Of a DNA stretch of 49,068 bases, positions 23,961 through 47,283 are shown in pieces. Made by a program: the position numbers and the translations under genes. The stretch is from the NCBI GenBank assembly GCA_030530825.1, contig JAUMUF010000002.1, positions 45,622 to 94,689 on the forward strand, read 5' to 3'. Under the pieces are notes generated by a model, which was given only the letters and a program-made list of their open reading frames with translations, was not told the DNA's origin and ran no database searches. Origin of the DNA: a bacterium. GTDB taxonomy: Bacteria > Patescibacteriota > Saccharimonadia > Saccharimonadales > Saccharimonadaceae. How positions within the stretch are numbered: the stretch's first letter is position 1; the number at the start of each line of letters is the position of its first letter.

Positions 23961-26900
23961 TATTTCTCCAGTACTTTTAATGGGTCTATTGCAAACTGCT
24001 TACCAAAACCACCTTTATGTATCTCAAAATGTAGATGAGCACCGTAAGACCATCCCTCATTCCCAACTTCACCTATCTTTTGTCCCTTTTTAACATTATC
24101 TCCTGGGTTAACTATATGAGTGCTCATATGTAGATATGCTGAATATACATCATTATTATGTTTTATTATTATTGTATGCGGACCTCCACCTCCAGAGGTG
24201 TAACCATATGTATCTTGAATGACTTGACCGTCTGAGGTTGCATACACAGGTGTACCAGTAGGGTAGCCTAGGTCTATTCCGCCGTGATTGTTTGGTTGTC
24301 CTTCAAGGACTCTAGGCCCGAATCCAGAAGTTATATTTTGAGATGAAGCTCCCTTTATCGGCCATATAAAATCATCCGGCAGACCTGCTAGATCAGAGTC
24401 TACTTCAGAAGAGTTATGTCTATTTGTTGATGGTTCTGAGTCCTCTAGACCTTCCTCTATGCGATGATAGGTCATTAATGTAGCATAATAATCTACCATA
24501 GGTATTTGCTCTTTGTTGCACTTTTCGCCATAATCAGTATCGTCATCGTTGGTAGCTATACCTATAGGATATTTTCTATCATAGCAAGATTTTAGGTACT
24601 TCTTAAAATCTCCTTTTGCTAAGGTCTCAATATTGTCAGATTCACTATCGGTCGCTAAATCACCATTGGATTGCATTTTTTCAATAATTTCATCAAGGGA
24701 TTTATTCTTGGCTACATTTGTATCTATGCCAATAATCGGATTGCAGAAAATATCAGTGGCGGCGCCAGTACCTTTAATTATTGTATCGTCGCAAACTTCC
24801 ATATTGGCACTAAATCCAGCAGCATCATCAGCATGTGATGTTGGTATTATTGAAGAAAACGCCCTTGAAGCTATTGAGCTTATTGCCGGCACGAATCCGC
24901 CCAAAGTTGCCATCTGCCTTTGATATGGCATTGTGGTAGCTATAATTGAGCCAAGGAACGTGTGATGTGATGTAGGATCGAATGGGCTTCTGGTAGCTCG
25001 TTCGTATTCTGCTTTTTCTGCTATCATTTTTTCATTTTCGAAGTATAAAGCCAAAGCTTGGCTCTTATTTAATGACGCTCCTCCTCCTGCTGAAGCATTC
25101 TTGGACATTGTCGCTCCAGCTCCAGAAATTATGGCGTTGCCGTAGTCTTGACCAAGAGTCTTACTATTAACTATTTCTCCCACTAAAAAGCTACCTATAT
25201 ATGTAACTATTTGCTCCTTGAATAGTTCAAAGGCCAATTGTGCTACCGATGCAAGAACAGTAAGTCCACTTACCGCTCCGGCCAAAAATGATCCGATACA
25301 TCCAAGCAGTGTCACGCCGCCTACTACGCAACCCACAATTGTAGCAACTGCAGCTGTCGCGGCAAGTGCAGCTCCGGCCATTGAGATTGTTTTGCACATT
25401 TTTGAACCCCAAGTCAACAGGTCTTTCATGCCGTTCATTATTTCTTTTATTTTGCCGGTTAGACCAACTGAGTAATTCTTGGCGGAATCATCAAGTGAGC
25501 CGACACTATCATTATATGCCAATGCCCTCCAGCCCTGGGATTCTGTGAAGGATTTTGTTGAATTATTGGCTGAATTTACGCTAGCTAAATATTTTAACGA
25601 TCTTTTGAAGAATGAAGATTCTTTATTCTCTGATTTTTCCCCATCTTCAGGAACTGGTATACCCATTGTTGGGTTACCTAAAGATTCGACCTCTTCGGTG
25701 GTTGCTTGATTGGCTTTCATTTTTGATGCTGTAGATAAGAATAGGAAAGCAAATCTAGCTAAAACTAAAAATCTAGTCAGTTTGATACCTGATATCACAA
25801 TAGATGTCCCCGCAAAAACAAAGCACAGTTTATTTATCGGATTCAGATATCCTTGAGCTTTATTCACGAACCCCTGAGCTTTAGAAGCGCCGGCAGCTAA
25901 CTTATCTTTCATTGATAAGCCTTTCATTTCTTCACCGACCTCTTTGCCCATTTTTGCGAGGTCGGCCTCGGCGGTTCGAGGTTCTTTTTTTGCATTTTCG
26001 TCGAGATTTTTAAGTTCATCGTCATTATCGTAATCTGGCGATTGTGAGGCTTCTGTGGAATTGGTTTTATCAGAGTCTTTATTGGAAGTTTCGAGTCCGT
26101 CATCTTGAACTTGTTTGGTGCTTTTTCCTTTATTGTCGGGCTTCGCGCCTTTAATATTAAACCATTTTTTGAATTTTTTATTAGCCTTATCTAAAAATGT
26201 ATGAAAATGCCCCTTATAACCTTTATCCCAAGATGCTTTAAGTTTAGGGTCTCTGAGCATACTTTTAATTGAGCGACTATCGTTGGTTATATTAGTACCG
26301 CTCTCGATATGTTCAAGGCTGGTAATTTTATTTTTACCGAATAAAGTCTTGCCGTTAGTCTCAACCTTAAATCCTGCCTTCTCAATGTTTTTGACTTGCG
26401 CGTCAGATACTGAAGCAAAACGGCAGTAAAGCCGAGTTTTACAATTTATCCCAGGTTCTTTAATCTTTAAATGCCAAAGTTTATCTTTAATAAGATCTGT
26501 TGAAGCGCCAGACCAGCCGATTTTTTCAGTGATTATTTCCATTATGTGGATTGGTGCGAGCATTGCCCCAAAAAATGAGAAGAACATAAAACCACCACTA
26601 ATTCCAATAAGCCCCGCTCCACCAAGAATTGCGGCTTTTTTACTCTTGAAGAAGCCAAATTTTCCCGCACCTTTAATTTTTGCGTTTCGAGATTTGTGTG
26701 TCCCGCCACCGGTATAATTAAAGCGGTTGGAAGGTGAATTTTCTCCTCCTAAGACTGATTCTTCACTTTGATTTCTTGAAGCAGAAGTAGCGGAATTTTC
26801 TGCCGCTATCAAAGAATCTGCATCATAGCCGTTAGAGGTTTTACTCGAAGAAGATTTTCCGCCATCAAAAACCTGAGCGTTACCCCATCGTTCTTGGGCT

Positions 26901-26986
26901 CGCCCTAAAGCGGATTGATTTTGATCGCTTAAATCGCTATAATCGCGATTTTGATCATCGTCATAATTATAATCTCTCGCTCCCAT
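23960..26986 (-). CDS. Large T4SS-associated membrane protein with C-terminal M23 peptidase
   Basis: 1008 residues. A disordered Asp/Ser/Asn-rich N-terminus (1-120) precedes a helix near 128-150, a long charged segment, further hydrophobic helices near 400-430 and a cluster (about 550-620) rich in Ala/Val/Cys (MAGAALAATAAVATIVGCVVGG). The C-terminus is an M23/LytM metallopeptidase with HGGID (His901, Asp905) and HLHFE (His984, His986), the full zinc set. It cuts peptidoglycan cross-links. The multi-helix scaffold plus lytic domain suggests a VirB6/VirB8- or VirB1-like combination. The family of the central region is not identified. A promoter lies upstream. Confidence 0.82.
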   Translation of the reverse strand: MGARDYNYDDDQNRDYSDLSDQNQSALGRAQERWGNAQVFDGGKSSSSKTSNGYDADSLIAAENSATSASRNQSEESVLGGENSPSNRFNYTGGGTHKSRNAKIKGAGKFGFFKSKKAAILGGAGLIGISGGFMFFSFFGAMLAPIHIMEIITEKIGWSGASTDLIKDKLWHLKIKEPGINCKTRLYCRFASVSDAQVKNIEKAGFKVETNGKTLFGKNKITSLEHIESGTNITNDSRSIKSMLRDPKLKASWDKGYKGHFHTFLDKANKKFKKWFNIKGAKPDNKGKSTKQVQDDGLETSNKDSDKTNSTEASQSPDYDNDDELKNLDENAKKEPRTAEADLAKMGKEVGEEMKGLSMKDKLAAGASKAQGFVNKAQGYLNPINKLCFVFAGTSIVISGIKLTRFLVLARFAFLFLSTASKMKANQATTEEVESLGNPTMGIPVPEDGEKSENKESSFFKRSLKYLASVNSANNSTKSFTESQGWRALAYNDSVGSLDDSAKNYSVGLTGKIKEIMNGMKDLLTWGSKMCKTISMAGAALAATAAVATIVGCVVGGVTLLGCIGSFLAGAVSGLTVLASVAQLAFELFKEQIVTYIGSFLVGEIVNSKTLGQDYGNAIISGAGATMSKNASAGGGASLNKSQALALYFENEKMIAEKAEYERATRSPFDPTSHHTFLGSIIATTMPYQRQMATLGGFVPAISSIASRAFSSIIPTSHADDAAGFSANMEVCDDTIIKGTGAATDIFCNPIIGIDTNVAKNKSLDEIIEKMQSNGDLATDSESDNIETLAKGDFKKYLKSCYDRKYPIGIATNDDDTDYGEKCNKEQIPMVDYYATLMTYHRIEEGLEDSEPSTNRHNSSEVDSDLAGLPDDFIWPIKGASSQNITSGFGPRVLEGQPNNHGGIDLGYPTGTPVYATSDGQVIQDTYGYTSGGGGPHTIIIKHNNDVYSAYLHMSTHIVNPGDNVKKGQKIGEVGNEGWSYGAHLHFEIHKGGFGKQFAIDPLKVLEK

Positions 26987-27045: not shown

Positions 27046-28893
27046 CTAAAATAATTCATTTGGGTCGGCGTATCCGTAGGCGCCATTATTGTCTCGAAGT
27101 GGCTGTTGATTTGGGTTGGTTGTAATCAGTGCGTCCTCTGTTGGGCTGGCTGTTATCTGGATATGAACATGGCTCTGCCCAGCAAAGAACAATCCTTGAC
27201 CAACTGGGAAATTAGCTAGACGCTTGCGTTCTTCTTCTGTCAGTTTGAAGACATCGCTCAAGACATCCACCGCCGATGAAGATTGCTTGAGAAGAAGTTG
27301 CATCGAACTGTTAGACACGATTGCGCGACCCATCTTCGACCCCATAAAGTCTTCAACGTCCTGCGTGATAGTTGTAAGTCCGAGATGGTATTTTCGAGCC
27401 CTTTTCGCCAAAGAAAACAAGAAATTGGCGGAATCTTCATATTGCATCAATTGCCAAGCCTCGTCTACGATGAGCATTCGTTTTTTCTGATCTGTTCTAA
27501 CGACATTCCAGATGTGAGACAGCACAATATACATCGCCACTGGACGAAGGTCATCTTCGAGGTCGCGAATGTTAAACACCACCATTGGATTATTGATGTC
27601 AATATTGGATTGTTGTGAAAAAATCCCCGCGAATGTACCAGTGGTGTATTTTCGAAGTCGCTGAGCCAATTGCGGGCCACTTCCACCCATATGAACTAAT
27701 GTATCATAAAGATGGATTATTGTTGGCGGCGTAGAATTGTGCGTGAGTGGATCAGAAGTAATCCCCGCGCGAGCATAAGTATCGATGATTGCCTGATCGA
27801 GATCTGCTTCTTCAGCCGGAGTAAGCCCGTGACCGTGAGTTCCGCCAAGCATCAAGCGGAAAAGTCCATGAAGCGTCACGATATTTGCGCGGAGCGCATT
27901 GTCGGCTTCATCCTGATCAATAACTCGCGGAAGGTCGAATGGGTTAATCCGCGTATCACTATTCAGACTTAAGCGAATATAACTTCCGCCAGTTGCATCG
28001 CATAATTTTTGATACTCGTTTTCTGGGTCGATAATCACCACATCGGCTCCCATCATCATTGTTCTAAGCGCCTCCAATTTAACGGTGTAAGATTTACCTG
28101 CACCAGATTTGGCAAAGACCACCATATTGGCGTTTTCCAAGGTGAAACGGTCAAAGATAACAAGCCCATTATTGTGCATATTTACGCCATAAAGTACGCC
28201 GTTTTCTTGCGTAAGATCGGCTGAAGTAAATGGGAATGAAGTCGAGATCGCGCCCGTATTCATATTTCTTCGAATTTGAAGTTTATCAGAAAGTTGCGGC
28301 ACGGTAGCATTCAAGCCCTGCTCCTGTTGAGAACTCGCCACTTTGGAGAAAATCAACTGCTGGCCAAGCATTGTTTCGATGGCGTTTTTATTAAAAGTAA
28401 GTTCATCCAGACTGTCCGCATAAAGTGTAATGTAAAGCCCAAAGCGGAAGAATTTTTCTGCGCCAAGTTGAAGTTGATCTCGAAGTTCCTCGGCGTCGGC
28501 AATGGCGGCTTCGAGCGCTGGATCGCGGACCTTACCCTTTTCGTTATTCAATTGAAGTGAGGCTTCAAGTTCTGTAACTTTGCGGCGGAGGTTTTTCATC
28601 ACGACATCAGTTTCTACAGGGTAAATAAACATCGAAATATCTAAAACGATATCAGTGTTAATGAGCCCCGAGAGCCAGCCAGTGTAAAGTTGGCGGGGAT
28701 AGCCATAGACGTAGAGTGTTTGGCCGTATTTAGTGCCGAGTCGGAAATATCCAGAATGAAGTTCAAGGCTGGACGGCGCTATCAGATCTCGAAGTGTATT
28801 AATACCTGTCAAAAAGGCTTTTTCGACTTCTGCTTGCTCTTGTGCTCGTTGCTGGGCGGCAATATCTGCCGCGGTTTTTTGCTTTTTAGCCAT
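27046..28893 (-). CDS. virB4: T4SS ATPase VirB4/TraC family
   Basis: 615 residues. The N-terminal 240 form the VirB4-type assembly domain (IAPSSLELHSGYFRLGTKYGQTLYVYGYP, DIVLDISMFIYP), and the C-terminal RecA-like motor has Walker A KSGAGKS (262-268), IIDPENEY (287-294) and Walker B RMLIVDEAWQLM near 470. The motor also carries the TITQDVEDF and SSMQLLLKQSS elements of VirB4. It powers T4SS assembly and substrate transfer at the membrane. The upstream TraC-like gene shares its last base with this ATG; the operon order is PrgI, TraC-like, VirB4, as in Gram-positive conjugation modules. Confidence 0.93.
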   Translation of the reverse strand: MAKKQKTAADIAAQQRAQEQAEVEKAFLTGINTLRDLIAPSSLELHSGYFRLGTKYGQTLYVYGYPRQLYTGWLSGLINTDIVLDISMFIYPVETDVVMKNLRRKVTELEASLQLNNEKGKVRDPALEAAIADAEELRDQLQLGAEKFFRFGLYITLYADSLDELTFNKNAIETMLGQQLIFSKVASSQQEQGLNATVPQLSDKLQIRRNMNTGAISTSFPFTSADLTQENGVLYGVNMHNNGLVIFDRFTLENANMVVFAKSGAGKSYTVKLEALRTMMMGADVVIIDPENEYQKLCDATGGSYIRLSLNSDTRINPFDLPRVIDQDEADNALRANIVTLHGLFRLMLGGTHGHGLTPAEEADLDQAIIDTYARAGITSDPLTHNSTPPTIIHLYDTLVHMGGSGPQLAQRLRKYTTGTFAGIFSQQSNIDINNPMVVFNIRDLEDDLRPVAMYIVLSHIWNVVRTDQKKRMLIVDEAWQLMQYEDSANFLFSLAKRARKYHLGLTTITQDVEDFMGSKMGRAIVSNSSMQLLLKQSSSAVDVLSDVFKLTEEERKRLANFPVGQGLFFAGQSHVHIQITASPTEDALITTNPNQQPLRDNNGAYGYADPNELF

Positions 28894-29774
28894 TAAAATT
28901 CTCCTTGTTGTGTTTTGCTTGGGGCTTTTTTGGTGTAAAGCGTGGCGATATTTTCGAAGTCACCTAGCGGTTCATATACGGCTGTGTCTGGATTGTAGAA
29001 GTTATAGTAGAGTTCACCAAGTTCTTTAGTGTTGAGTTGGACGCTTTTTACGCCAATTTGAAACAATCCACCAGTGATCGAGTCGACCCGTTTGCGAAGT
29101 TCATCTCTTGCCTTTTCCCAAGTGTCGTGATCGATTTTTTTAACAGTTGTAGTTTTAGGAAATAGCCCTGAGAAAAATCCTTTGGCTTGGTCGGCGGCCG
29201 TTGTTCCATCACCAAGCGGATAGTATGGCACGACAATAAAGAAAGACTTATCCATAATGTTGGCGGCTTGAGAGAGTTCTTCAATAAAGCCAATATAATC
29301 ATCCATTAGGCGAGCGAGAAGCATATTTCCTTGATTGCGGTTGATATCGGCGAGTTTATTGAGATAAGGCTCGATATCAATGCGTTGGGAGCGGACAAGA
29401 ATCTGAACCGGATGGTGGAGCGCATTCAAAAAACTCTGATAAGAGTATTCCACACCCTCTTTCTCGCGCGTACTCATAAGATCGTAGTTGATCGATTTAC
29501 ACGCAATTACTGAGCGAAAACTGCCGTCCTTCATCACTACTATACCTTCTCGGATTTCAGCGATTTCGAGAGAATTTTGTGTCGAAGTTGGATTGGCTGG
29601 AGCACTGGCGCTCATTGGTGGTTGAGGTTGTTGGTTGGGTGCGATATTTGGTTGCGGGTTGAATCCTTGCGCCTGATTTGGACTAAACCGCTGATTTTGT
29701 TGCGCATTAAAGCCGGCTCCATTTGGTGCTAAATTCTGTTCCCGATTTACTTGAAATTGTTGTCCGTTATCCAT
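28893..29774 (-). CDS. TraC-like T4SS protein (VirB4 N-terminal-type domain without motor)
   Basis: 293 residues. The first 85 are a Pro/Gln/Asn-rich low-complexity tail. Then comes a domain with EIREGIVVMKDGSFRSVIACKSINYDLMS and YSYQSFLNALHHPVQILVRSQRIDIEPYL, which resembles the N-terminal domain of VirB4/TraC proteins; no Walker motifs are present. Such stand-alone TraC-like genes occur directly before virB4 in PrgI-type T4SS clusters. It may act as an adaptor between PrgI and VirB4. Start and stop overlaps of 1 base on both sides imply coupled translation. Confidence 0.75.
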   Translation of the reverse strand: MDNGQQFQVNREQNLAPNGAGFNAQQNQRFSPNQAQGFNPQPNIAPNQQPQPPMSASAPANPTSTQNSLEIAEIREGIVVMKDGSFRSVIACKSINYDLMSTREKEGVEYSYQSFLNALHHPVQILVRSQRIDIEPYLNKLADINRNQGNMLLARLMDDYIGFIEELSQAANIMDKSFFIVVPYYPLGDGTTAADQAKGFFSGLFPKTTTVKKIDHDTWEKARDELRKRVDSITGGLFQIGVKSVQLNTKELGELYYNFYNPDTAVYEPLGDFENIATLYTKKAPSKTQQGEF

Positions 29775-29775: not shown

Positions 29776-30798
29776 TTACCTCAGTGAAATTATAACTTCT
29801 TCTTCTCCTAATTTTGTCTCTTTTTGCTGAATTTTTTCCGCCTGCTTGGCGAGAGTTTCTACGCTTAAATCTTTTCCATCTTCGACCAATTTTTCGATAT
29901 TTTGTTGATGAATTTCCTGCTTAACTCTCTCGGCTGGACTAATTGGCGGTGAGACTTGTGGATAATTCTGTGGAAAAAATTGTGAAAAACTCGCTTCTGG
30001 TGAAACTGTTTGATTTGATTGCGAAGTGTAAGCCTGCTGTCCGATTGGTGAAATCACACTCTGTCTAACACCTTCTGGGTAAGGATTATATTGAATTTGT
30101 TGCGGCAAAACATCTGGCGTCTCCAATTGTTGAATTTGCCTTTCTCGCCCTGCGTAAAGATTCATTGGATTGACGGCGTAAGTTCTTTCTGTGATCTGCC
30201 CCGCATTCAATCCTGAATAATCCGCCAAGTTTCGAGCGGTGTTCATATTTTGCATAATCTCTGCCTTTCGAGAATTTTCCGCTCGCGCAAGAAGATTGTC
30301 GATGTTTCGATTAAGAATTGGGTCTTCTGAAACATCGATCGGGTTACCGCTTTGACCATGCTGTGCAGAAACGGCGTTTTTGATCGCCCAGCCTTCCGTA
30401 TCCACGATATCGGCAAGATAACTGAGACGGCGTACGGCTTCTTCTTGGCGGATACCTTTAGTCCTGTCGCGTTCAGGATTTTTGGGTGCGGCAATTTCGA
30501 TCAAGTGTTCTTTTCCGTCTGGTTGCCAGAGGCGTTTATTTGGCTTCAGGTTAAAAGAAATTACAGCCGCAAAATACGCCTCCATCGGTTGATCTTTGCG
30601 GATAGGTAGCGCCAGCGCGCCAAAGAAGAGGATAAACGGCAAAGGTATAATTATAAGCCCTGGATAAAGTGTAAATAAAAACCACGCCAAGCCAATGAAG
30701 CCCGCGGTTATAAGTAAATAAACAAACTGCCTCGGACTAAATGGCCCGAGCAATTTATCATCTGCCTCAACATCTTGGGGAACTTTATAAACACTCAT
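29776..30798 (-). CDS. PrgI family T4SS membrane protein (VirB3-like)
   Basis: 340 residues. The first 110 are the PrgI domain: VPQDVEADDKLLGPFSPRQFVYLL, two transmembrane helices (about 28-70) and the RKDQPMEAYFAAVISFNLKPNKRLWQPDG cytoplasmic segment. Then follows a long Gln/Pro/Ser-rich tail with predicted coiled-coil near 300-340 (KQEIHQQNIEKLVEDG). PrgI corresponds to VirB3, which anchors VirB4 at the membrane. The tail is far longer than in typical PrgI proteins (about 110-130 residues). An extended -10 box lies 31 bases upstream; no strong Shine-Dalgarno site is visible. Confidence 0.88.
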   Translation of the reverse strand: MSVYKVPQDVEADDKLLGPFSPRQFVYLLITAGFIGLAWFLFTLYPGLIIIPLPFILFFGALALPIRKDQPMEAYFAAVISFNLKPNKRLWQPDGKEHLIEIAAPKNPERDRTKGIRQEEAVRRLSYLADIVDTEGWAIKNAVSAQHGQSGNPIDVSEDPILNRNIDNLLARAENSRKAEIMQNMNTARNLADYSGLNAGQITERTYAVNPMNLYAGRERQIQQLETPDVLPQQIQYNPYPEGVRQSVISPIGQQAYTSQSNQTVSPEASFSQFFPQNYPQVSPPISPAERVKQEIHQQNIEKLVEDGKDLSVETLAKQAEKIQQKETKLGEEEVIISLR

Positions 30799-30850: not shown

Positions 30851-30880
30851 GAAAAAAAGCCCCAATTAGATTAGGGCTAA
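30851..30880 (-). terminator. Terminator of the VirB6-like gene
   Basis: Minus strand AGCCC (30878-30874) pairs with GGGCT (30862-30858) and is followed by T7. The hairpin overlaps the stop codon at 30877. The stem is short, so read-through to prgI is possible. Confidence 0.6.
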
Positions 30881-33519
30881 AATTTGTAAGTTGTTCGGAA
30901 AGATTCGATTTGCTCTTTCTGCTTCTTGGACATCTTGCGTTTGAGCTCATCTGCGTTGTTGAGCTCATTGAGGCCTTCCGTAATTTTAATTGAATTTTTA
31001 GCGAAGACTTCATTGATTGCTTTCTGGATTTCAGCCTTCTTGATAATGTCTGATTCTTTTCCGATAGGACTTCCGTTGTCGGATCCGCTGTAGTTGAAGA
31101 GTAATTTCATCGCGCTATCAGCCATTTTGGAGGCTTTTTCTGATGAAAATTCTGTCGAGAATTTGGTTGCGATATGCTTCATGATCTCGGCTTCACTTTT
31201 TCCGCTTAATGCGAGTTCATCCAAGAAGCCTGCGCCCATAAACTGGACGTCGTCTTTTTTGTTCTTTTTGAAGGCTTCCACAAGGCTCGCTCTGACACTG
31301 GACAGTTCTCCGCCATCAGTAGTTTTACCAAGGGTGTGAATAATATCCGAAATGTCGGCTGTCTGCATAAATCGCTCGGCGGCGGCTTTGCGCAAGTTAT
31401 CATTGACTTTGAGTTTAATACCGTTCTTCTCGATATCTTCGCCCTGGTTTTTGTCCATTACAGACTGATAATCTTTACCGGAAAAGTCTAGAGAAGACAT
31501 AAGTTTGGAGACAGATTCGATCTCTTCTTTTGACTCTTTTGAAGCGGCAGCCATCGCGCTAGCGAGAGCAGAAACACGACCTTCTTCTCCTCTGATACCA
31601 GAGGCTTTTTTGAGAAGATCTTCATTATTTTTAAGATGGTTGGCGATTGCAGAATTGGTTGCGAGATTATTGTTGCGCTCGGCTTCCTTGTAAGCATTGG
31701 CCTCGTTGGTGTTATGAAGAAAATCAACAGCCTTTTTACCATATTTTCTGCTCATTTCTTTTAATTTGGACTCATCAACGCCAACAACAACACCTTTGTC
31801 GTCGAGCTTAAGTGTACCTTTAATAATGTCTGCTTTAATTTCAGAAATTTTGGCGGAATAATTCGCTGAGGCGCGATCCAGATTCTGTTGCGCGTCAAGT
31901 TCGTTTTGTATAATACTTCGAGAAAGCATAAAGTCTTTAAATATACTTGGTGACATTTTTGTCGCCTTTTCATGCTTGGCGATCTCGCTTTCTTGGAAGC
32001 GAGCTTTTTGATATTGCTCGGCGATATTTTTATTCGAAGCCCATCTTGCGTTTCTTCTATATCTCATACCATGCGCAGCGGCCGTCGGATTAAATTTTCC
32101 GCCCTTAGCGATTTGCCTGTTGATGTTTGCTTCTTGGTGCCCTTTTATCCAGTTTCTCGCACTATCAACGGGACCTTTATTAGGATTATTAATAATACCA
32201 GCAAATTTGCCAAGTAAGCTTCCGCTAACTTTCATAATTGTTGGTGTTATGGCTAATGGTATAACTTGAACTGCCATTCCGAGTATAAGTGTTGCAAGAT
32301 TGCCATTAGCATTAGCTATGATTGTTAGACCTACCAATTGAGACCCTCCAAAAACCAGAGCTATCAAAGGATACATTAATAGCATTGTTGTGAGAAGATC
32401 TTTCCATTTTTCAAACCATTTTTCTGTATTTGGCAAAATTGAAGCCGCAAAGGCCAAAGGTGATAAGAAAATCAAAACAGTTATAATCGCCTGTCTGGCG
32501 GCAAGCACCATAAAAGCCACGAATGCTGAATAAATTAACCCTAAAAGCACTAATGATACCAATATCCCAACCCCTAAAATGTTGGTTGCTCCGGCAATAG
32601 CTAGAGAATATCCAGCATATCCTGCGCCAGATAATAATCCGGTCATTAATGTTGCCCAACTCAAGCCACTGAGTCCTTGGACATTAATTTTTTCGCCACT
32701 TTCAGAAAGTCCACTTTCGAATATATTTTTTCTTATATCCACTAACATATTTTGAACTTGATGACCAGAAATATTTGATATATCGACAAGTATTGCAGAA
32801 ATATAATATGAAAGATTGATTAAAATCGCAGCTATAATTAGTTTAGGAAGAATTTTTTTAATTCCGTAGTTAGATACTCCTACATTGGTTATTTGAGAGT
32901 ATACTACCGCAATCATGATTATTGCGAGAACTATGTTGGCGATATCTTTCATATAATTCCATACTATAAAAACGCCAGATCTGTCGGATGTTTGAAGAGG
33001 TTGGACTTTAAGAAAATTCTCAACAAATCCATAAAGAGCATCCATGCCTCTTGCTAGCGTATTTCCGATCATACATATAATCCAGCCTCCTCCACCTTCT
33101 ACGGCGCAAGAGGTTTTGCCCTGTTCTGCGTCGGATGCTACACCTTGACCTGTTATATTTTGTGAATTTCCCTGCTGTGAGGCGTTCCCTAGAGCAGATA
33201 CTTTAATTGTCGAAATTTTTCCGTTGATTTTATCTTCGATTTTATCCAAAGTAATAACGCGCGCGGTTTGCTCGCCCTGCGAAATGCCGACATCTTCGAT
33301 AAAAACTTCTCCATTTCGAAGGTTTTCTGGCAGTTTAGCCTTTTCAGAAGCGGAGGCCTTTTTAAAATTTTTACCATCATAAAAGATCGCACTTTTACTG
33401 TTATCGGTCCACTTGGCGCCATCAAGGGCGTGCGTAATTGGGCTGAAATTAAAAATCCCGATAGCAAGCATCAGAATCATTAATAAAATCCCAATTTTTT
33501 GCGTAAAAGTCCGCTTCAT
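30877..33519 (-). CDS. VirB6/TrbL-like T4SS polytopic protein with long coiled-coil tail
   Basis: 880 residues: a signal peptide (about 1-30), a region with VEGGGGWIICMIGNTLARGMDALYG, then at least six helices between about 180 and 430 (IANIVLAIIMIAVVYSQ; LIIAAILINLSYYISAILVDISN; LGVGILVSLVLLGLIYSAFVAFMVLAARQAI), followed by a 430-residue charged helical C-terminus (many Lys/Glu/Ala). VirB6-type proteins form the inner-membrane channel; the cytoplasmic tail is an unusual size. The start ATG 33519 is set by the promoter just upstream. A distinctive block is PLAFAASILPNTEKWFEKWKDLL, as in TrbL/VirB6 relatives of Gram-positives. Confidence 0.75.
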   Translation of the reverse strand: MKRTFTQKIGILLMILMLAIGIFNFSPITHALDGAKWTDNSKSAIFYDGKNFKKASASEKAKLPENLRNGEVFIEDVGISQGEQTARVITLDKIEDKINGKISTIKVSALGNASQQGNSQNITGQGVASDAEQGKTSCAVEGGGGWIICMIGNTLARGMDALYGFVENFLKVQPLQTSDRSGVFIVWNYMKDIANIVLAIIMIAVVYSQITNVGVSNYGIKKILPKLIIAAILINLSYYISAILVDISNISGHQVQNMLVDIRKNIFESGLSESGEKINVQGLSGLSWATLMTGLLSGAGYAGYSLAIAGATNILGVGILVSLVLLGLIYSAFVAFMVLAARQAIITVLIFLSPLAFAASILPNTEKWFEKWKDLLTTMLLMYPLIALVFGGSQLVGLTIIANANGNLATLILGMAVQVIPLAITPTIMKVSGSLLGKFAGIINNPNKGPVDSARNWIKGHQEANINRQIAKGGKFNPTAAAHGMRYRRNARWASNKNIAEQYQKARFQESEIAKHEKATKMSPSIFKDFMLSRSIIQNELDAQQNLDRASANYSAKISEIKADIIKGTLKLDDKGVVVGVDESKLKEMSRKYGKKAVDFLHNTNEANAYKEAERNNNLATNSAIANHLKNNEDLLKKASGIRGEEGRVSALASAMAAASKESKEEIESVSKLMSSLDFSGKDYQSVMDKNQGEDIEKNGIKLKVNDNLRKAAAERFMQTADISDIIHTLGKTTDGGELSSVRASLVEAFKKNKKDDVQFMGAGFLDELALSGKSEAEIMKHIATKFSTEFSSEKASKMADSAMKLLFNYSGSDNGSPIGKESDIIKKAEIQKAINEVFAKNSIKITEGLNELNNADELKRKMSKKQKEQIESFRTTYKF

Positions 33520-33586: not shown

Positions 33587-33615
33587 TTGCTTTTTTTCAG
33601 ATTATATTGTATATA
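33587..33615 (+). promoter_or_regulatory. Promoter of the pilin-like array
   Basis: -35 TTGCTT (33587-33592), 17-base spacer, -10 TATATA (33610-33615), 7 bases to ATG 33623. Confidence 0.45.
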
Positions 33616-33622
33616 TAAAGAT

Positions 33623-34051
33623 ATGAATAGTAAAAATAAAAAGATAATTTTCGGGCTTGTGTTGATTGTGGCGAGTTTTATGAACTCGATTTCGATTTTT
33701 TCGCCGATTAAAATACATAATAATGTATATGCGGAAGAAGCTCCAAAGGATGGTGGAAGTGGTGGTTCTGGAAACTCTTCGGCTCCGGGAGGTCCTTCGA
33801 CGGCCGTTCTTCCTGACGATTGGAAAATAGAAGACATATTAAATATGATCTTAACCACGATAACTATTGGTATCGGCGTATCGGCTACACTTTCGATAGT
33901 GATCGCTGGCGTAATTTATGCTACCGCCGCCGGAGATAGCGGTAAAGTTTCTAAGGCTAAAACTATGATTATGAATACGGTTATAGGTTTGGTTGCGTAT
34001 GCCTTTATGTGGGCATTTTTACAGTGGTTAATACCAGGAGGAGTATTTTAA
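33623..34051 (+). CDS. VirB2/TrbC-like small membrane protein 1 of 7
   Basis: 142 residues: a signal peptide (about 1-38), a Gly/Ser-rich linker (GGSGGSGNSSAPGGPS), then two transmembrane helices separated by a short loop AAGDSGKVSKAK, and a hydrophobic C-terminus ending WLIPGGVF. The two-helix hairpin with a conserved GDS.K..KAK cytoplasmic loop is shared by all seven proteins and resembles VirB2/TrbC pilin topology. The start ATG 33623 is chosen because the promoter ends 7 bases before it. The TAA overlaps the next ATG (TAATG), so translation is coupled. Confidence 0.78.
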   Translation: MNSKNKKIIFGLVLIVASFMNSISIFSPIKIHNNVYAEEAPKDGGSGGSGNSSAPGGPSTAVLPDDWKIEDILNMILTTITIGIGVSATLSIVIAGVIYATAAGDSGKVSKAKTMIMNTVIGLVAYAFMWAFLQWLIPGGVF

Positions 34052-34461
34052 TGAAGAAGATTTTATATAGTTTAATTGCAGTGTTTGTTGGCGCTTCTGC
34101 TCTTAACTTGGTTTTTAGTAAAGCGAGTTTGGCGGCTGGTTGTGATTCGACATTTTTCGGTATTCCATCTTGGTGTCGTGGTCTTGGAGAAGGTGACGGT
34201 GTGAAGCCGATTGGAAAAGATGGTATATCTATTCAACAGTTTATTTGGACTGTAGTTGGCAATATATCTGACGGTATATTCAGAATAATTGGTGTTATAG
34301 CAATGGGCTTCATTATCTGGGCCGGATTCCAATATATGATTGCGGCGGGAGATAGTGGTAAGGTCGCCAAGGCTAAAGCTACCTTAACCAATGCGATTAT
34401 TGGATTAATTATCGCTGTTGGTGCGTCAATGATTGTTCAATTGATTATGGGGGTATTTTAA
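34051..34461 (+). CDS. VirB2/TrbC-like small membrane protein 2 of 7
   Basis: 136 residues with a signal peptide (about 1-28), a Cys-containing extracytoplasmic segment (AAGCDSTFFGIPSWCRGLG, perhaps a disulphide), a helix (IIGVIAMGFIIWAGFQYMIAA), the loop AAGDSGKVAKAKATL and a second helix ending IMGVF. Same plan as its neighbours. ATG 34051 shares one base with the previous stop, and the next gene starts within this stop. It is the only array member with two Cys near the mature N-terminus. Confidence 0.78.
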   Translation: MKKILYSLIAVFVGASALNLVFSKASLAAGCDSTFFGIPSWCRGLGEGDGVKPIGKDGISIQQFIWTVVGNISDGIFRIIGVIAMGFIIWAGFQYMIAAGDSGKVAKAKATLTNAIIGLIIAVGASMIVQLIMGVF

Positions 34462-34751
34462 TGGCTAGTTCTAATCCTGGATTTGATAAGAAAAAAGTCT
34501 TTGAAAATGTAAGTCTTCCTCAGAAAAATGCTAACGACGACTCCATTAAGAATATTCTCAATAATGTGTTTTTCTGGGCGGGCGTTGTGGCGGTTGTTGT
34601 AATTATGGTGGCAGGAATTTATTATGCGATTTCCGCTGGAGATAGTAGTAAGATAAGTAAAGCCAAGAATGCCCTAACCTACGCTATCGTTGGTTTGTTA
34701 GTTGTGATATTCTCTGCCGTAATTGTTAATTTTGTATTGGGAGTGTTTTAA
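34461..34751 (+). CDS. VirB2/TrbC-like small membrane protein 3 of 7 (no signal peptide)
   Basis: 96 residues, the shortest member. It lacks an N-terminal signal sequence; a 30-residue polar start (MASSNPGFDKKKVFENVSL) leads straight to helix 1 (FFWAGVVAVVVIMVAGIYYAI), the loop SAGDSSKISKAKNAL and helix 2 ending VNFVLGVF. The Gly of the GDSG motif is Ser here. The different topology start suggests a variant subunit, such as a cap or base adaptor. ATG overlaps the preceding stop by one base. Confidence 0.75.
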   Translation: MASSNPGFDKKKVFENVSLPQKNANDDSIKNILNNVFFWAGVVAVVVIMVAGIYYAISAGDSSKISKAKNALTYAIVGLLVVIFSAVIVNFVLGVF

Positions 34752-35119
34752 TGAAGAAGATTTTTGCTTGGATTTTTGTGGCTGTTCTTTCTGTTTTTAG
34801 TCTTAGTAGTTTTATTGATAATACTACTTATGCGACTAATACAACCAAGGATGCTTGTGATTATATGAAAGGCTCTGCGATATGTCAAAAAACACCTGAG
34901 GCTAAAAGTATCGTTCCTAATGTTATCCGAATTTTAGCCTGGGTAGTAGGTGTTTTATCTGTAATAATGATTATTTGGGCGGGTATTCAATATGTGATCT
35001 CATCTGGTGATAGTGGTAAAATTGGCAAGGCTAAGAACACCTTAATATATGCGGTTGTTGGTCTAGTGATTGCCATTTCGGCGGGTGCGATTGTAAGTTA
35101 TATTTTAAATAAGGCGTAA
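34751..35119 (+). CDS. VirB2/TrbC-like small membrane protein 4 of 7
   Basis: 122 residues: signal peptide (about 1-29), a short segment with two Cys (KDACDYMKGSAICQK), helix 1 (ILAWVVGVLSVIMIIWAGIQYVI), the loop SSGDSGKIGKAKNTL and helix 2 (YAVVGLVIAISAGAIVSYIL). The first helix is nearly the same as in member 5. The ATG overlaps the previous stop, so members 1-4 form one continuous run of TAATG couplings. Confidence 0.78.
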   Translation: MKKIFAWIFVAVLSVFSLSSFIDNTTYATNTTKDACDYMKGSAICQKTPEAKSIVPNVIRILAWVVGVLSVIMIIWAGIQYVISSGDSGKIGKAKNTLIYAVVGLVIAISAGAIVSYILNKA

Positions 35120-35140
35120 ATTATTAAAAGAAAGGAATAT

Positions 35141-35530
35141 ATGAAAAAAGGTATAATAATTTTAGCGACAATCTTAATGAGTGGAATTGGGATGGTTTCT
35201 GTGCCCGCTTTGGCTACTGGTGGTAGTTCTGCTCCTACTACTAACTCTGCGGCAAAAAGTGCAATTGATGGCGTTAATTCTACGGGCACCTCATCATCAA
35301 CTAACGTAAACGGTATAATCAAGACGGTTGTCGGCGTTATGATGTTTATTTTGGGTGCATTGTCTGTGATTATGATCATCTACTCAGGTATCCAATATGT
35401 TATCTCTGCTGGCGATAGTGGTAAAATCACTAAGGCTAAAAATACGCTTATCTACTCTATTGTTGGACTTGTTGTTGCGATTTTTGCGTATGCTATCGTT
35501 AACTTTGTTTTGACAGAACTGGGTAAATAA
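35141..35530 (+). CDS. VirB2/TrbC-like small membrane protein 5 of 7
   Basis: 129 residues: signal peptide with an ALA cleavage-type end (about 1-24), a Thr/Ser-rich linker, helix 1 (VVGVMMFILGALSVIMIIYSGIQYVI), the loop SAGDSGKITKAKNTL and helix 2 (YSIVGLVVAIFAYAIVNFVL). Separated from member 4 by 21 bases with its own AAAGGAA ribosome site, so it may be made at a different level. Member 6 follows after 68 bases and a new promoter. Confidence 0.78.
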   Translation: MKKGIIILATILMSGIGMVSVPALATGGSSAPTTNSAAKSAIDGVNSTGTSSSTNVNGIIKTVVGVMMFILGALSVIMIIYSGIQYVISAGDSGKITKAKNTLIYSIVGLVVAIFAYAIVNFVLTELGK

Positions 35531-35533
35531 TAG

Positions 35534-35561
35534 TTGATTTTAAGTTAAAGTCTGATATAAT
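35534..35561 (+). promoter_or_regulatory. Internal promoter before pilin-like gene 6
   Basis: -35 TTGATT (35534-35539), 16-base spacer, TGATATAAT ending at 35561. Leader about 30 bases with AAAGGAAA. Confidence 0.6.
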
Positions 35562-35598
35562 TTATTTAAGAAATAATTCAAGAAAGGAAATTATAAAT

Positions 35599-36015
35599 AT
35601 GTTATCAAAAATTAAAAATATTGTATTCGCAACAGTTTTAGCGGTCTCAGGATTGGCTGTTGTTACCCCTACCGTTGATGCTACTACTGGAACTTCAGGT
35701 GGACAATCAAGTAGCGTAACTTCCGGTGGATTGCGAGGGGGTATTGATACTGGCGCAACCGACAATACAAGAAAAGACCTATTTGGTGATGGTGGTATTT
35801 TTACTACTATCATTAATGTTATGCTATTCATAATTGGTGCGCTTTCTGTGATTATGCTTATCTACGGTGGTATCCGATACACAATTTCTCGCGGTGACTC
35901 TGGTGAAGTTAATAACGCTAAAAATACCATTCTTTACGCGATTGTTGGTTTGATTGTTTCTATCCTTGCATACGCGATCGTTAACTTTGTTGTTACTGAA
36001 TTCCAAGAAAAATAG
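35599..36015 (+). CDS. VirB2/TrbC-like small membrane protein 6 of 7
   Basis: 138 residues: signal peptide (about 1-29, ending ...TVDATTG), a Gly/Ser/Thr-rich part, a GGIDTGATDNTRKDLFGDGG segment, helix 1 (TTIINVMLFIIGALSVIMLIYGGIRYTI), loop SRGDSGEVNNAKNTI and helix 2 (YAIVGLIVSILAYAIVNFVV). The loop Lys is replaced by Asn-Asn. It resembles member 7 more than members 1-5 (both have SRGDS and ...DLF near helix 1). It ends at a terminator that closes the array. Confidence 0.8.
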   Translation: MLSKIKNIVFATVLAVSGLAVVTPTVDATTGTSGGQSSSVTSGGLRGGIDTGATDNTRKDLFGDGGIFTTIINVMLFIIGALSVIMLIYGGIRYTISRGDSGEVNNAKNTILYAIVGLIVSILAYAIVNFVVTEFQEK

Positions 36016-36031
36016 TAAATACAAGAGTAAT

Positions 36032-36060
36032 AAAACCGCCCTATTGACGGCGGTTTTATT
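36032..36060. terminator. Bidirectional terminator, pilin array and comF
   Basis: AAAACCGCC (36032-36040) pairs with GGCGGTTTT (36049-36057), then ATTTTTTG. It overlaps the end of comF on the other strand. Confidence 0.85.
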
Positions 36061-36691
36061 TTTTGTTGGTATGAACGATAAGCACCATTCTATAAACTTT
36101 TTCCGCTCCGCTATCGCGCAGGAGCCTTACGATATTCTTGGTTGTGGCGCCAGTGGTATGAACATCGTCAAGGACGATATAGATTTTATCTTTTTGCGGA
36201 GTTTTACTGAGTTTATAACTTTTTGACGCCTGATCGATTCTTGTTTCTCTATTGGCTCCAATTTGAGTGAGATTGCCGACTCGTTTTATTTCATCCCCTA
36301 TTCTGATGGGTAATAGATCTTGTAGATTATTCAAAATCAAAGAGGTGTGACAAAATCCTCTTTGTCTGATATGCTTATATGAAGTAGGCACACCCACGAA
36401 AATAATTTTATTGAGATCATCTCGAAGTTCTGGCGTTTCTCTGATGCCTTTTGTGAGAATTTTTGCTAAACCTCTGGCGTTGGCTTTTCGCGAGAATTCT
36501 TTCATCTCGTCAATAATAGCCCTGATTTTGCTTTGATCTTGATCTGATTCAAAGTAAAATAAGTCGCCGTCTTGCTTCATTGTAAAGTCTTCTACACAAT
36601 CGTTGCAAATCGCATCACCGATCCGCTCGCAATAATAACACTTATCTGGCGCTAAAATATCCAAAATCGCTTCGAGCCAATTTTTCTTCAA
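36056..36691 (-). CDS. comF: ComF family phosphoribosyltransferase-like protein
   Basis: 211 residues: an N-terminal zinc cluster (Cys18, Cys21, Cys29, Cys32 in the CYYCERIG and ICNDC pattern), then a PRTase fold with GVPTSYKHIRQRGFCH and the PRPP loop YIVLDDVHTTGATTKNIV. ComF/ComFC proteins support uptake of single-stranded DNA into the cytoplasm in naturally competent bacteria. Next to a T4SS that could bring DNA to the cell, this is notable, although comF is common in many genomes. No other competence gene is in this window. Confidence 0.85.
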   Translation of the reverse strand: MKKNWLEAILDILAPDKCYYCERIGDAICNDCVEDFTMKQDGDLFYFESDQDQSKIRAIIDEMKEFSRKANARGLAKILTKGIRETPELRDDLNKIIFVGVPTSYKHIRQRGFCHTSLILNNLQDLLPIRIGDEIKRVGNLTQIGANRETRIDQASKSYKLSKTPQKDKIYIVLDDVHTTGATTKNIVRLLRDSGAEKVYRMVLIVHTNKK

Positions 36692-36708
36692 AAAATCCTC
36701 CTTTTTTC

Positions 36709-36737
36709 TTGATTATATCATCAAAGTGCGATATAAT
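36709..36737 (+). promoter_or_regulatory. hsp20 promoter
   Basis: -35 TTGATT (36709-36714), 17-base spacer, -10 TATAAT (36732-36737). Leader about 35 bases; no CIRCE or HAIR element is visible. Confidence 0.7.
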
Positions 36738-36777
36738 AAAGAAAATAAATGCCAAATATTTTGAAAGTGGAGGAGAA

Positions 36778-37245
36778 ATGGCACGAAGACAAAATGATGA
36801 TTTTCTACAAGATGAACTAGAGGCGGCTTTTGACTTTGGCGATGAGCTTTTAGGCAATACTGCCGAAGATACTTTTGCCGAGGAAGAAGTTATTGTTGAG
36901 CAAGAAGAAGCGCAAGAGGAACTTCCTGGACAACTTGCAGTTGATGTTTATGAGACTGAAGATAAGTTGTTTGTTAAGGCTCGCACTGCTGGTGTCAACA
37001 AGCACGATTTGGACGTTTCTTTGAGTGATAATATCTTGACAATTAGCGGAACTCTAAGTTCTGGTGAAGAAGATGGCGTTATCGCGCATCACGCTCAAGA
37101 GTGCTACTGGGGAGAATTCTCTCGAACGCTCGAACTTCCTGTCCCTATTAAAGAAGATGAAGTTGAAGCGATGCTCAAAGATGGAATTTTGACAATTTCA
37201 TTTAGTAAAATCAAACAAGAATCAAAACGAATCCAAGTTTTGTAA
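36778..37245 (+). CDS. Hsp20 / alpha-crystallin family small heat-shock protein
   Basis: 155 residues: a charged N-terminus rich in Glu/Asp (about 1-50), then the alpha-crystallin domain (about 53-140) with DVYETEDKLFVKARTAGVNKHDLDVSL, ISGTL and ECYWGEFSRTLELPVPI...KDGILTISF. The C-terminus has a short IxV-like end (RIQVL), the motif used to oligomerise. It binds unfolded proteins without ATP. ATG 36778 follows GGAGGAG 3 bases away; an earlier in-frame ATG at 36709 lies in the promoter. Confidence 0.92.
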   Translation: MARRQNDDFLQDELEAAFDFGDELLGNTAEDTFAEEEVIVEQEEAQEELPGQLAVDVYETEDKLFVKARTAGVNKHDLDVSLSDNILTISGTLSSGEEDGVIAHHAQECYWGEFSRTLELPVPIKEDEVEAMLKDGILTISFSKIKQESKRIQVL

Positions 37246-37252
37246 AAATCTG

Positions 37253-37280
37253 CCCCGCACTTGCTTGTTGCGGGGTTTTT
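37253..37280 (+). terminator. hsp20 terminator
   Basis: CCCCGCA (37253-37259) pairs with TGCGGGG (37269-37275), followed by TTTTTA. Confidence 0.8.
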
Positions 37281-37303
37281 ATTGTCGAAAATTTCGAAAG
37301 CGG

Positions 37304-37332
37304 TTGATTTTTGCTTCGAGATGTGTTAAAAT
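37304..37332 (+). promoter_or_regulatory. tRNA-Ser(TGA) promoter
   Basis: -35 TTGATT (37304-37309), 17-base spacer, -10 TAAAAT (37327-37332), 10 bases before the mature tRNA start. Confidence 0.7.
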
Positions 37333-37342
37333 TGAAAAATCT

Positions 37343-37432
37343 GGAGAGGTGGCCGAGTGGTTGAAGGCACCGGTCTTGAAAACCGGCAAGGTGTAAAAGC
37401 CTTCGAGGGTTCGAATCCCTCCTTCTCCGCCA
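37343..37432 (+). tRNA. tRNA-Ser (anticodon TGA)
   Basis: A 90-base class II tRNA with encoded CCA. The acceptor strand starts GGAGAGG and ends CCTTCTCCGCCA. Anticodon stem CCGGT/ACCGG encloses the loop CTTGAAA, giving anticodon TGA (reads UCN). A long variable arm with paired ends and a TTCGAAT T-loop are present. Confidence 0.95.
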
Positions 37433-37439
37433 TAAAGCG

Positions 37440-37466
37440 AACCCCACCTTGAGTGGGGTTTGGTTT
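37440..37466 (+). terminator. tRNA-Ser(TGA) terminator
   Basis: AACCCCAC (37440-37447) pairs with GTGGGGTT (37453-37460), followed by TGGTTTATGTTTT. Confidence 0.65.
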
Positions 37467-37525
37467 ATGTTTTGGGGCTTCGAATCCTCGAGAGGGTGCG
37501 TTCGCGAAGCGGTTCCATAGGAACC

Positions 37526-37543
37526 ATCCCTCCTTCTCCGCCA
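37526..37543 (+). repeat. Duplicate of the tRNA-Ser 3' end
   Basis: The 18 bases ATCCCTCCTTCTCCGCCA recur exactly: at 37415-37432 (tRNA end) and 37526-37543. No complete tRNA precedes the second copy, so it is a relic. Such tRNA-end duplications are typical of attachment sites left by integration. Confidence 0.7.
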
Positions 37544-37550
37544 AGAAAAG

Positions 37551-37576
37551 AATCTCGAAGTTTCGGGATTTTTTTC
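37551..37576 (+). terminator. Terminator after the tRNA relic
   Basis: AATCTCGAA (37551-37559) pairs with TTCGGGATT (37562-37570, one G.T pair), then a T-rich run. Confidence 0.6.
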
Positions 37577-37591
37577 TTATTTCGAAAAATA

Positions 37592-37617
37592 AAACTTCGC
37601 CCCATAGAGCGAAGTTT
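37592..37617 (-). terminator. Terminator of pilin-like gene 7
   Basis: AAACTTCGC (37592-37600) pairs with GCGAAGTTT (37609-37617); on the minus strand it is followed by TATTTTTC. Confidence 0.75.
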
Positions 37618-37625
37618 AGTCTACT

Positions 37626-38045
37626 TTAGATATTGGTTGGTGCTGGTCCGCTACCGCTTCCGCCGCCAAATCCGCCATCCATAAATTGCCCGACTACGAA
37701 TCGCACGATTGCGTAAGCCATAATTGCTACAATTAGACCTACGATTGCGTATAGAATGGTATTTTTGGCTGCTTCAACCGCTTTAGAATCTCCTCGAGAA
37801 AGCACATATCGCAGTCCTCCCCAGATTAGCATCATAACGCTCAAAACACCAACAAGGAAAAGCATCGTGTTAATGATTTTGCTAAAAACACCGCCATTTC
37901 CAGAAATGCTGTTAAACAAATCCGTTGGAACACCTTCTCCTCGCCCTGCGCTAATTCCGCGTTGAACGGCGCTCGCGGTCACTCCCACCACGCCTTGAGC
38001 AATTAAACTTGATGAAAGAATAGAAATTTTGACAAACTTTTTCAT
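37626..38045 (-). CDS. VirB2/TrbC-like small membrane protein 7 of 7 (separate locus)
   Basis: 139 residues: signal peptide (about 1-25), a Gly/Arg-rich stretch (GISAGRGEGVPTDLFNSISGNGG), helix 1 (INTMLFLVGVLSVMMLIWGGLRYVL), the loop SRGDSKAVEAAKNTI and helix 2 (YAIVGLIVAIMAYAIVRFVV), and a Gly/Ser-rich tail (GGFGGGSGSG). It is closest to member 6 (SRGDS and AKNTILYAIVGLIV shared) but lies alone on the minus strand, 1.6 kb past the array, with its own promoter and terminator. A separate copy suggests independent expression, perhaps as the main pilin. Confidence 0.8.
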   Translation of the reverse strand: MKKFVKISILSSSLIAQGVVGVTASAVQRGISAGRGEGVPTDLFNSISGNGGVFSKIINTMLFLVGVLSVMMLIWGGLRYVLSRGDSKAVEAAKNTILYAIVGLIVAIMAYAIVRFVVGQFMDGGFGGGSGSGPAPTNI

Positions 38046-38054
38046 AATGTGTTT

Positions 38055-38083
38055 ATTTTATCACAAATTGGCTTAAAAGTCAA
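38055..38083 (-). promoter_or_regulatory. Promoter of pilin-like gene 7
   Basis: Minus strand -35 TTGACT (38083-38078), 17-base spacer, -10 TAAAAT (38060-38055), 9 bases before ATG 38045. Confidence 0.7.
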
Positions 38084-42552: not shown

Positions 42553-42576
42553 AGAGCGAGTTCTTCTCGCTCTTTA
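42553..42576. terminator. Terminator at the end of the recombinase gene
   Basis: AGAGCGAG (42553-42560) pairs with CTCGCTCT (42566-42573), followed by TTATAATT on the plus strand; on the minus strand it overlaps the recombinase stop and a T-rich run lies beyond CACAC. Confidence 0.65.
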
Positions 42577-44226: not shown

Positions 44227-44292
44227 AGTGTGCTCCTTTCGATTCACCTATAACCCACTGACAGGATACCTCGAATGGGCGAAGAAGTCCAG

Positions 44293-44409
44293 TCAATTCT
44301 GCTCCAAAATCAAGCGTTGGAGTTTCTTTTTGAGAGGTTCTTTCCCGACAAATTTTCGCAAAATGATATAGGTTGCCTGTCCGATTTTCTGTGTTTTTTC
44401 TTTAGTCAT
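44293..44409 (-). CDS. 38-residue protein, possibly TnpW-like
   Basis: Starts MTKEKTQKIGQATYIILRKF and ends LKKKLQRLILEQN. The KIG..TY..R.F.....E....K..RLI pattern recalls the TnpW family found beside TnpX-type recombinases in Firmicutes elements; that is from memory of the family, not a search. The start is supported by GAAGGAGG 4-5 bases upstream. It overlaps the end of the replication-relaxation gene by 8 bases, so it is translated from the same mRNA just before the recombinase. It might be a regulator or directionality factor of excision. Confidence 0.6.
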   Translation of the reverse strand: MTKEKTQKIGQATYIILRKFVGKEPLKKKLQRLILEQN

Positions 44410-45169
44410 CTCGTCCTCCTTCTATAAATCCTGAAAATTCGTCCAAAGTCACCACTTCGAGCAGTTCCCAATAAGCGTCCAAATCCTCCCTGATGCGGTT
44501 CAAAACCGCCAACTTGCGTTTGTCATCTGGCACAAGCCAAACCACCAAAGGGAAAATTTCGTTTTCTCGTTGCTCAATGCCAGTGTTGAAGTAGGCGATG
44601 TATTGCTTACACTTGGCAATAATCCTGCCAAGGTGCTCCGTCGCATTATCCGCCTCGAAGAAATAAGCTTCTTCGAAATCGCCCACCGTCAGCTTCGCAA
44701 AAGCATCGGGTTTGAGCGTCAAGCTTGAAAACAAGGTCGCAAAACTCCGCCAACATTTTGGTTCGAAGGAAAAAGTATCAAGTAGAATTTTACCCTCCAA
44801 ATGAAGTGTGTTCAACTCTACAAAAATCTGTGTCACAAACAATTGGTGTTTGAGGTGGTTTTGGCTGGGTTCGTAGCGATTCTTTAGGCGAATCTTAACG
44901 CTCTCGTCCACCTTTCGAAGCTCCTTTATCCCCCTATGGGTGATGTGCCAGACATAGGAACCACTCCCAGCTCTCACACCACCAATTCGGCGATTTAGGT
45001 GGGCGATAAGCCCTAAATTGTTCAATTTCTTAGTCAAAAGATTGGTTCGTCTGGTGGCAGTCTTAGGTTTGTTTTGTCTAAAATAAAGCTCTACCAACTG
45101 CCTTGTTGTGGCGTAGCGACAGCGGTTTAGCAAGTTCAATACCTCAACATCCTGCTTAGTTAGTCTCAT
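44402..45169 (-). CDS. Replication-relaxation family protein
   Basis: 255 residues: an N-terminal winged helix (LTKQDVEVLNLLNRCRYATTRQLVELYF with TNLLTKKLNNLGLIAHLNRRIGG), then a PD-(D/E)XK-like alpha/beta part (LKPDAFAKLTVGDFEEAYFFEADNATEHLGRII) in which Asp, Glu-Ala-Asp and KCKQYIAYF form the usual nuclease-like pattern. These proteins are encoded on conjugative elements and plasmids and probably act in transfer initiation or replication. The start ATG 45169 follows GGAG; an earlier in-frame start at 45256 would lie deep in the coupling-protein gene. It overlaps the coupling-protein gene by 14 bases. Confidence 0.75.
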   Translation of the reverse strand: MRLTKQDVEVLNLLNRCRYATTRQLVELYFRQNKPKTATRRTNLLTKKLNNLGLIAHLNRRIGGVRAGSGSYVWHITHRGIKELRKVDESVKIRLKNRYEPSQNHLKHQLFVTQIFVELNTLHLEGKILLDTFSFEPKCWRSFATLFSSLTLKPDAFAKLTVGDFEEAYFFEADNATEHLGRIIAKCKQYIAYFNTGIEQRENEIFPLVVWLVPDDKRKLAVLNRIREDLDAYWELLEVVTLDEFSGFIEGGRDD

Positions 45170-47282: not shown

Positions 47283-47283
47283 A

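Follow-up and report, generated by a model that had tools for sequence, protein, structure and literature searches.

Pilin genes at the locus

In this study, a stretch of 49,068 nucleotides (nt) from contig JAUMUF010000002.1 of the Saccharimonadaceae assembly GCA_030530825.1, hereafter the window, was analysed. It carries seven small genes for VirB2-type pilins beside the core genes of a type IV secretion system (T4SS). The genome measures 687 kb in three contigs, and a whole-genome search with Pfam PF18895 (T4SS_pilin) returned these seven genes and no others. In the VirB4 comparison, the close relatives were named Candidatus Saccharibacteria.

Pilins 1-6 lie in tandem on the forward strand. 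Pilin 1 (33623..34051; PF18895 E value 1.1e-7) has a signal peptide, two helices and the C-terminal end ...WLIPGGVF; its start was corrected to ATG 33623, rather than TTG 33587. Pilin 2 (34051..34461; 4.8e-14) has a signal peptide, a C...FFGIPSWCRGL motif and two helices. Pilin 3 (34461..34751; 4.2e-12) is short, with 96 residues, and has no signal peptide; an upstream in-frame start that would supply one was sought and none is available. Pilin 4 (34751..35119; 2e-11) combines a signal peptide with a C-x8-C pair ahead of helix 1, and pilin 5 (35141..35530; 3.6e-12) has a signal peptide and no cysteine. Pilins 4 and 5 are alike (53% over the kept columns). Pilin 6 (35599..36015; 6.3e-11) is the most conserved array member and has its own promoter-like site. 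Pilin 7 (37626..38045; 2.8e-9), a lineage of its own, is inverted on the reverse strand, past a comFC-like gene (36056..36691, reverse strand), which is a conserved spacer between the array and pilin 7, and an Hsp20 gene. The six tandem genes stand 4.7 kb from virB4, and this makes them a VirB2 array as defined for Patescibacteria (at least two tandem pilin genes near virB4).

A preliminary description of this DNA had listed seven pilin genes here, and the open reading frames (ORFs) together with the PF18895 matches bear it out. The TAATG linkage that it gave for members 1-4 corresponds to overlaps joining genes 1-2, 2-3 and 3-4. Two helices flanking a G-D-S loop are common to all seven proteins; their alignment has ten invariant columns, which include G-D-S and the A-K after the loop, in line with the conserved GDS.K..AK loop proposed before. 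By sequence heuristics, six of the seven have a hydrophobic N-terminus that carries a site of the A-x-A type; gene 3 lacks it, as had been described. The two members said to contain cysteine pairs are genes 2 and 4 in the alignment.

Family assignment and predicted structure

All seven proteins exceeded the curated PF18895 cut-off of 26.6 bits, with scores of 32.3-52.6 bits (E 1e-7 to 5e-14). The seven genes beside the T4SS core can thus be taken as paralogues of the VirB2 type (T4SS_pilin), and the earlier assignment as VirB2/TrbC-like pilins holds. The TrbC/VirB2 pilins of diderm conjugation (PF04956) share the signal peptide, the two helices and a short charged loop, and genes 2-5 are weakly similar to them; they differ in that all window pilins fall below the Pfam cut-off of 27.9 bits (best 26.1 bits, gene 4), and genes 1, 6 and 7 gave no PF04956 match at all. 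NCBIfam NF045849, the Mbov_0395 pilin-like conjugal transfer protein of mycoplasma integrative and conjugative elements, was the sole NCBIfam pilin family matched: all seven proteins hit it at 26.2-36.6 bits, but below the cut-off of 40 bits. The VirB2-type architecture (signal peptide, two transmembrane helices, short basic loop) was recognised by sequence heuristics in six of the seven. The predicted model of pilin 6 is a helical hairpin (67-96 / 101-137). A profile of the seven proteins gave no significant match among the sequences of solved structures, a search in which two-helix proteins carry little signal.

Positional orthology in relatives

Loci were compared in relatives from the same genus, family and order, in 80 named genome contigs and in other classes. 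Of 61 relatives, 58 had PF18895 genes, as did 141 of 145 genomes sampled from the phylum, in most cases with several genes per genome. Divergent virB6, pilins 1-6, comFC and an inverted pilin 7 form a layout found repeatedly in the family and the order, and a matching gene order was also seen in one class-level relative, L186. Array size ranged from 1 to 8 domains per locus, an undercount where short arrays are cut by contig ends; metagenome-assembled contigs may also be mis-binned. Some genomes have extra pilin copies. In the gut-associated loci L132-L134, L137, L138, L140, L148 and L150-L154, the reduced array starts with a fused pilin, and most of these loci retain the inverted pilin 7.

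Pilin labels were assigned from gene order alone, before any tree was built. A careful tree was made from 17 six-gene arrays. In it, one clade comprised position 1 (support 100/99) and another comprised position 2 (99/96), and both were present in 100% of bootstrap trees. Position 3 needed two label changes, and the total over the tree was 17, against 65.9 with shuffled labels. A quick tree was also built from a larger set, of 360 domains. When each pilin was compared there with its nearest labelled neighbour from a different locus, the two shared a position in 18/18, 18/18, 16/18, 14/18, 12/18 and 16/18 cases for positions 1 to 6, respectively, and in 32/32 for position 7. As judged from these trees, positions 1 and 2 are old, fixed, single orthologous lineages across the order, and positions 3 and 7 probably are likewise. 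The PGG type of position 1 was also found in L186. In 19 loci of other classes neither the positional scheme nor the PGG type was convincingly recognised, and the scheme is claimed here for the order and L186, not for the whole phylum. No earlier report of positional orthology among these pilins was found.

Position-specific motifs

Besides their place in the tree, several positions have motifs of their own. These motifs were picked after the sequences had been viewed; the counts therefore serve as a description of the set, and it is the tree labels that provide an independent test. Loci L142, L156, L059, L044 and L063, with reduced or duplicated arrays whose gene order gives no clear position, were left out of the counts. 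At position 1, PGG within the last nine residues occurred in 36/38 proteins against 0/141 at other positions. At least two cysteines were present in 35/38; the window gene 1 has none. Some relatives have long exterior parts at this position. Position 2 has a motif of the W-x-R-G-L type in 27/35 (0/144 elsewhere) and at least two cysteines in 35/35. The N-terminal part of position 3 is short (median 25 residues), and a signal-like stretch was seen in 6 of 33. At position 4, all 28 proteins have at least two cysteines ahead of helix 1. Given the counts at positions 2 and 4, the cysteine pairs of genes 2 and 4 in the window are positional features.

Pilins 2 and 3

A two-domain pilin ORF was found in 26 of the 69 distinct loci that have an array beside virB6, and its first domain was of the position-2 type in 25 of the 26. 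In the AlphaFold model of the fused protein of L105, which has moderate confidence (pLDDT 72), one helical hairpin follows the other. Because the two genes are translationally coupled in the window and fused in relatives, the data suggest that pilins 2 and 3 act together. We propose that the two work as a pair. If the pair inserts N-out, the C-out end of pilin 2 would set pilin 3 N-out, and pilin 3 could reach the membrane without a signal peptide.

Putative expression signals and conservation levels

Pilins 5 and 6 are separated by a gap, 63-80 nt long in most six-gene arrays, which in the window holds an extended -10 promoter-like site, TTGATT-16-TATAAT (35534..35561, forward strand). Such a site precedes the last array gene in 27 of 29 arrays and the penultimate gene in 3 of 29 (shuffled mean 3.6). 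Within six-gene arrays it stands upstream of gene 6 in 16/18, and upstream of genes 2-5 in 1-3/18 each. In L114, L056 and L073, an apparent terminator stem was seen by eye in the same gap. The array is closed by a strong terminator-like stem-loop of 12 pairs with a T tail (36029..36060, forward strand). Pilin 7 has its own promoter-like site, TTGACT-17-TAAAAT (38055..38083, reverse strand), with TG ahead of the second hexamer; a site of the extended -10 type was found upstream of pilin 7 in 21 of 31 cases (shuffled mean 3.5).

The core of pilin 6 has a mean identity of 60% across the order, and the cores of pilins 1-5 have 40-50%. The value for pilin 7, 68%, comes from a set of more closely related sequences. 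In the N-terminal parts, conservation is poor at all positions (26-33% identity). Conserved and preceded by its own promoter-like site, pilin 6 is a candidate main subunit.

Comparison with known systems

Classical diderm TrbC/VirB2 conjugation systems have one major pilin. The preliminary description had noted that most T4SSs do so, which is right in general; in this group, arrays are the rule and have been published, and the seven-pilin set belongs to this known kind. A 2025 survey (Quinonero-Coronel et al., PMC12102498) reported 441 VirB2 arrays in Patescibacteria with 2-11 pilin genes and a mean identity of 25%, and, with Bartonella and Anaplasma as analogues, suggested a role in host adaptation or antigenic variation. 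In a transposon screen, Wang et al. (2023, PMC10633639) found the T4SS and the pilin series to be essential in Southlakia epibionticum. A review (PMC12857230) describes six sequence-divergent pilins in the same organism.

The arrays of the survey and of S. epibionticum ML1 resemble the window in PF18895 membership, a T4SS neighbourhood near dnaA, six tandem pilins and low mutual identity. In the available parts of PMC12102498 and PMC10633639, the pilins are treated as a variable set; the present analysis adds positional orthology, motifs for each position, the 2+3 fusions and a separate promoter-like site for pilin 6. Compared with the arrays published there, the window additionally has the inverted seventh pilin. 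The VirB2 paralogues of Bartonella and Anaplasma, as cited in PMC12102498, also stand in tandem and belong to a T4SS that contacts the host. There, the paralogues are understood as a means of antigenic or adhesion variation, whereas in the present group lineages fixed to their position persist from family to family.

Proposed model and alternatives

We consider it fairly probable that the seven genes make up a heteromeric VirB2-type pilin set of the Saccharibacteria T4SS, with fixed, specialised subunits of which pilin 6 and/or pilin 7 would be the main one. Among the earlier proposals, "mixed subunits" fits best. Pilins 1-5 would probably share a transcript on which the translation of 1-4 is coupled, and would be fixed, non-interchangeable subunits. 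Pilin 1, which adjoins virB6, may be a base or cap subunit. Given their own promoter-like sites and highest conservation, pilin 6 and/or pilin 7 would probably serve as the main subunit, in a short pilus or conduit joining the epibiont and its host. A more specific form of this idea is held only tentatively, at somewhat less than even chances: a heteropolymeric pilus or conduit with four or more kinds of non-interchangeable pilin (1, the 2-3 pair, 4, and 6/7 as the main one), unlike the characterised one-pilin conjugative pili. A cultivated Saccharibacterium cannot do without the T4SS and its pilin array, and position-fixed subunits shift the question from why there are many variants to what the job of each subunit is. 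Points of focus are then whether pilins 2 and 3 pair, whether pilin 6 or 7 is the main subunit, and the place of pilin 1 beside VirB6.

Several observations weigh against a set of fixed, specialised subunits. Positions 4, 5 and 6 needed 10, 13 and 6 label changes in the careful tree and are not clean orthologues, and within-genome sister pairs among positions 4-6 occur in some relatives. The trees thus indicate that local duplication or conversion has occurred at positions 4-6. The second domain of the fused ORFs was nearest to position 3 in about ten loci and ambiguous among positions 3-6 elsewhere. In gut-associated lineages, position 1 is absent and the arrays are shorter, so position 1 is not universally needed. 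Foldseek searches with the models of pilin 6 and of the fused pilin 2-3 of L105 gave no significant VirB2 match, hairpins being uninformative in such searches.

The alternative that survives best is that no filament is formed and that the hairpins build a membrane ring, a channel lining or a conduit for T4SS substrates. It is compatible with subunit specialisation and differs in the structure built. Monoderm T4SSs are mostly without pili (PMC12857230), the two-helix cores are hydrophobic with short exteriors, and the heterogeneity of the set fits a complex of fixed stoichiometry. We regard it as rather unlikely all the same: the PF18895/VirB2 relatives are pilins, six of the seven proteins have signal peptides, and the exterior parts at position 1 are long in some relatives.

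Specialised subunits also account for the data better than an antigenic or host-range repertoire, in which the paralogues would be alternative major pilins diversifying the surface, as proposed for the Bartonella VirB2 arrays. The divergent N-terminal parts and the local duplication or conversion at positions 4-6 speak for such a repertoire, and the idea was suggested for Patescibacteria in PMC12102498. However, positions 1 and 2 are single lineages with fixed order and private motifs, and divergence at every position tracks that of VirB6 (Mantel r 0.70-0.84, p 0.0005). No long near-identical repeat was present within the window array, where the best repeat, 62-70% over 199 nt, is the shared core of pilins 4-6; no phase-variable tandem repeats or silent cassettes were found. 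Conservation is highest in pilin 6, the best-promoted gene of the array, and the layout indicates co-transcription, not alternative expression. The antigenic change put forward in the preliminary description is not supported by these comparisons, and we consider a repertoire improbable. Limited variation at positions 4-6 may arise from local duplication or conversion.

That the array is a neutral relic of tandem amplification, with no distinct roles, appears very unlikely. Array size is variable and some genomes have extra copies, but distinct signatures are retained across many families in reduced genomes, and the array is essential in S. epibionticum (PMC10633639). Unrelated small membrane proteins such as holins, which had been named beforehand as the refuting case, can be given almost no chance and are ruled out at the family level, since a weak PHROGs holin match of gene 6 (E 0.0014) stands against seven proteins above the PF18895 cut-off and against PrgI, VirB4 and TrsD homologues adjoining the pilins in relatives with a complete locus.

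T4SS neighbours and other features

The T4SS genes lie on the reverse strand, divergent from the array. Next to pilin 1 is a VirB6-like polytopic membrane protein (30877..33519); this label, taken over from the preliminary description, is based on position, size and hydrophobicity only, and the Pfam search gave no family match. The earlier PrgI and VirB4 calls stood with Pfam support, as a PrgI/VirB3-like protein (29776..30798; PF12666, 8.6e-11) and a VirB4 ATPase (27046..28893; PF19044, 8.2e-29). The protein between them (28893..29774), previously called TraC-like, is TrsD-like, a relative of the VirB4 N-terminal part, with a match below the cut-off (NF041427, 2.3e-8). The two wall-lytic neighbours were confirmed: one is an M23 peptidase with membrane segments (23960..26986; PF01551, 1.2e-26), and the other is a lysozyme (Phage_lysozyme2) with a GDSL lipase/esterase domain (22236..23960; PF18013, 1.4e-31; PF13472, 7.2e-10). 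The latter forms the far end of the T4SS cluster, and its C-terminal part is CHAP-like by eye.

In loci L045, L046, L048, L052 and L065, a second, different T4SS was found in some relatives. Its order is a short pilin (~112 residues), a protein of ~430-500 residues with a pilin domain, a TrsD-like protein, VirB4, M23 and a coupling protein.

A further module occupies 42574-48736 of the window on the reverse strand and contains a serine recombinase, a Replic_Relax relaxase-like protein, a TraG/VirD4-like coupling protein, an MT-A70 methyltransferase, plus two small ORFs. The module has the appearance of an integrative mobilisable element; the T4SS, which has no relaxase of its own, is a few kb away. 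This genome has a second, diverged copy at another site (G000:C1 about 518500-525000, locus L216), with the six genes in matching order and a coupling protein that is 46% identical. Two more coupling-protein-like ATPases (G000:C1 91849-93192 and 278823-280199), 25-28% identical, lie away from the T4SS. Genes for such ATPases were present in 61/61 genomes searched, and the published survey found likewise.

Beside pilin 7, at 37343-37552 of the window, the 27 nt at the 3' end of a tRNA-Ser gene (ATCCCTCCTTCTCCGCCA...) recur 111 bases downstream with 85% identity. This repeat is possibly the scar of a past integration.

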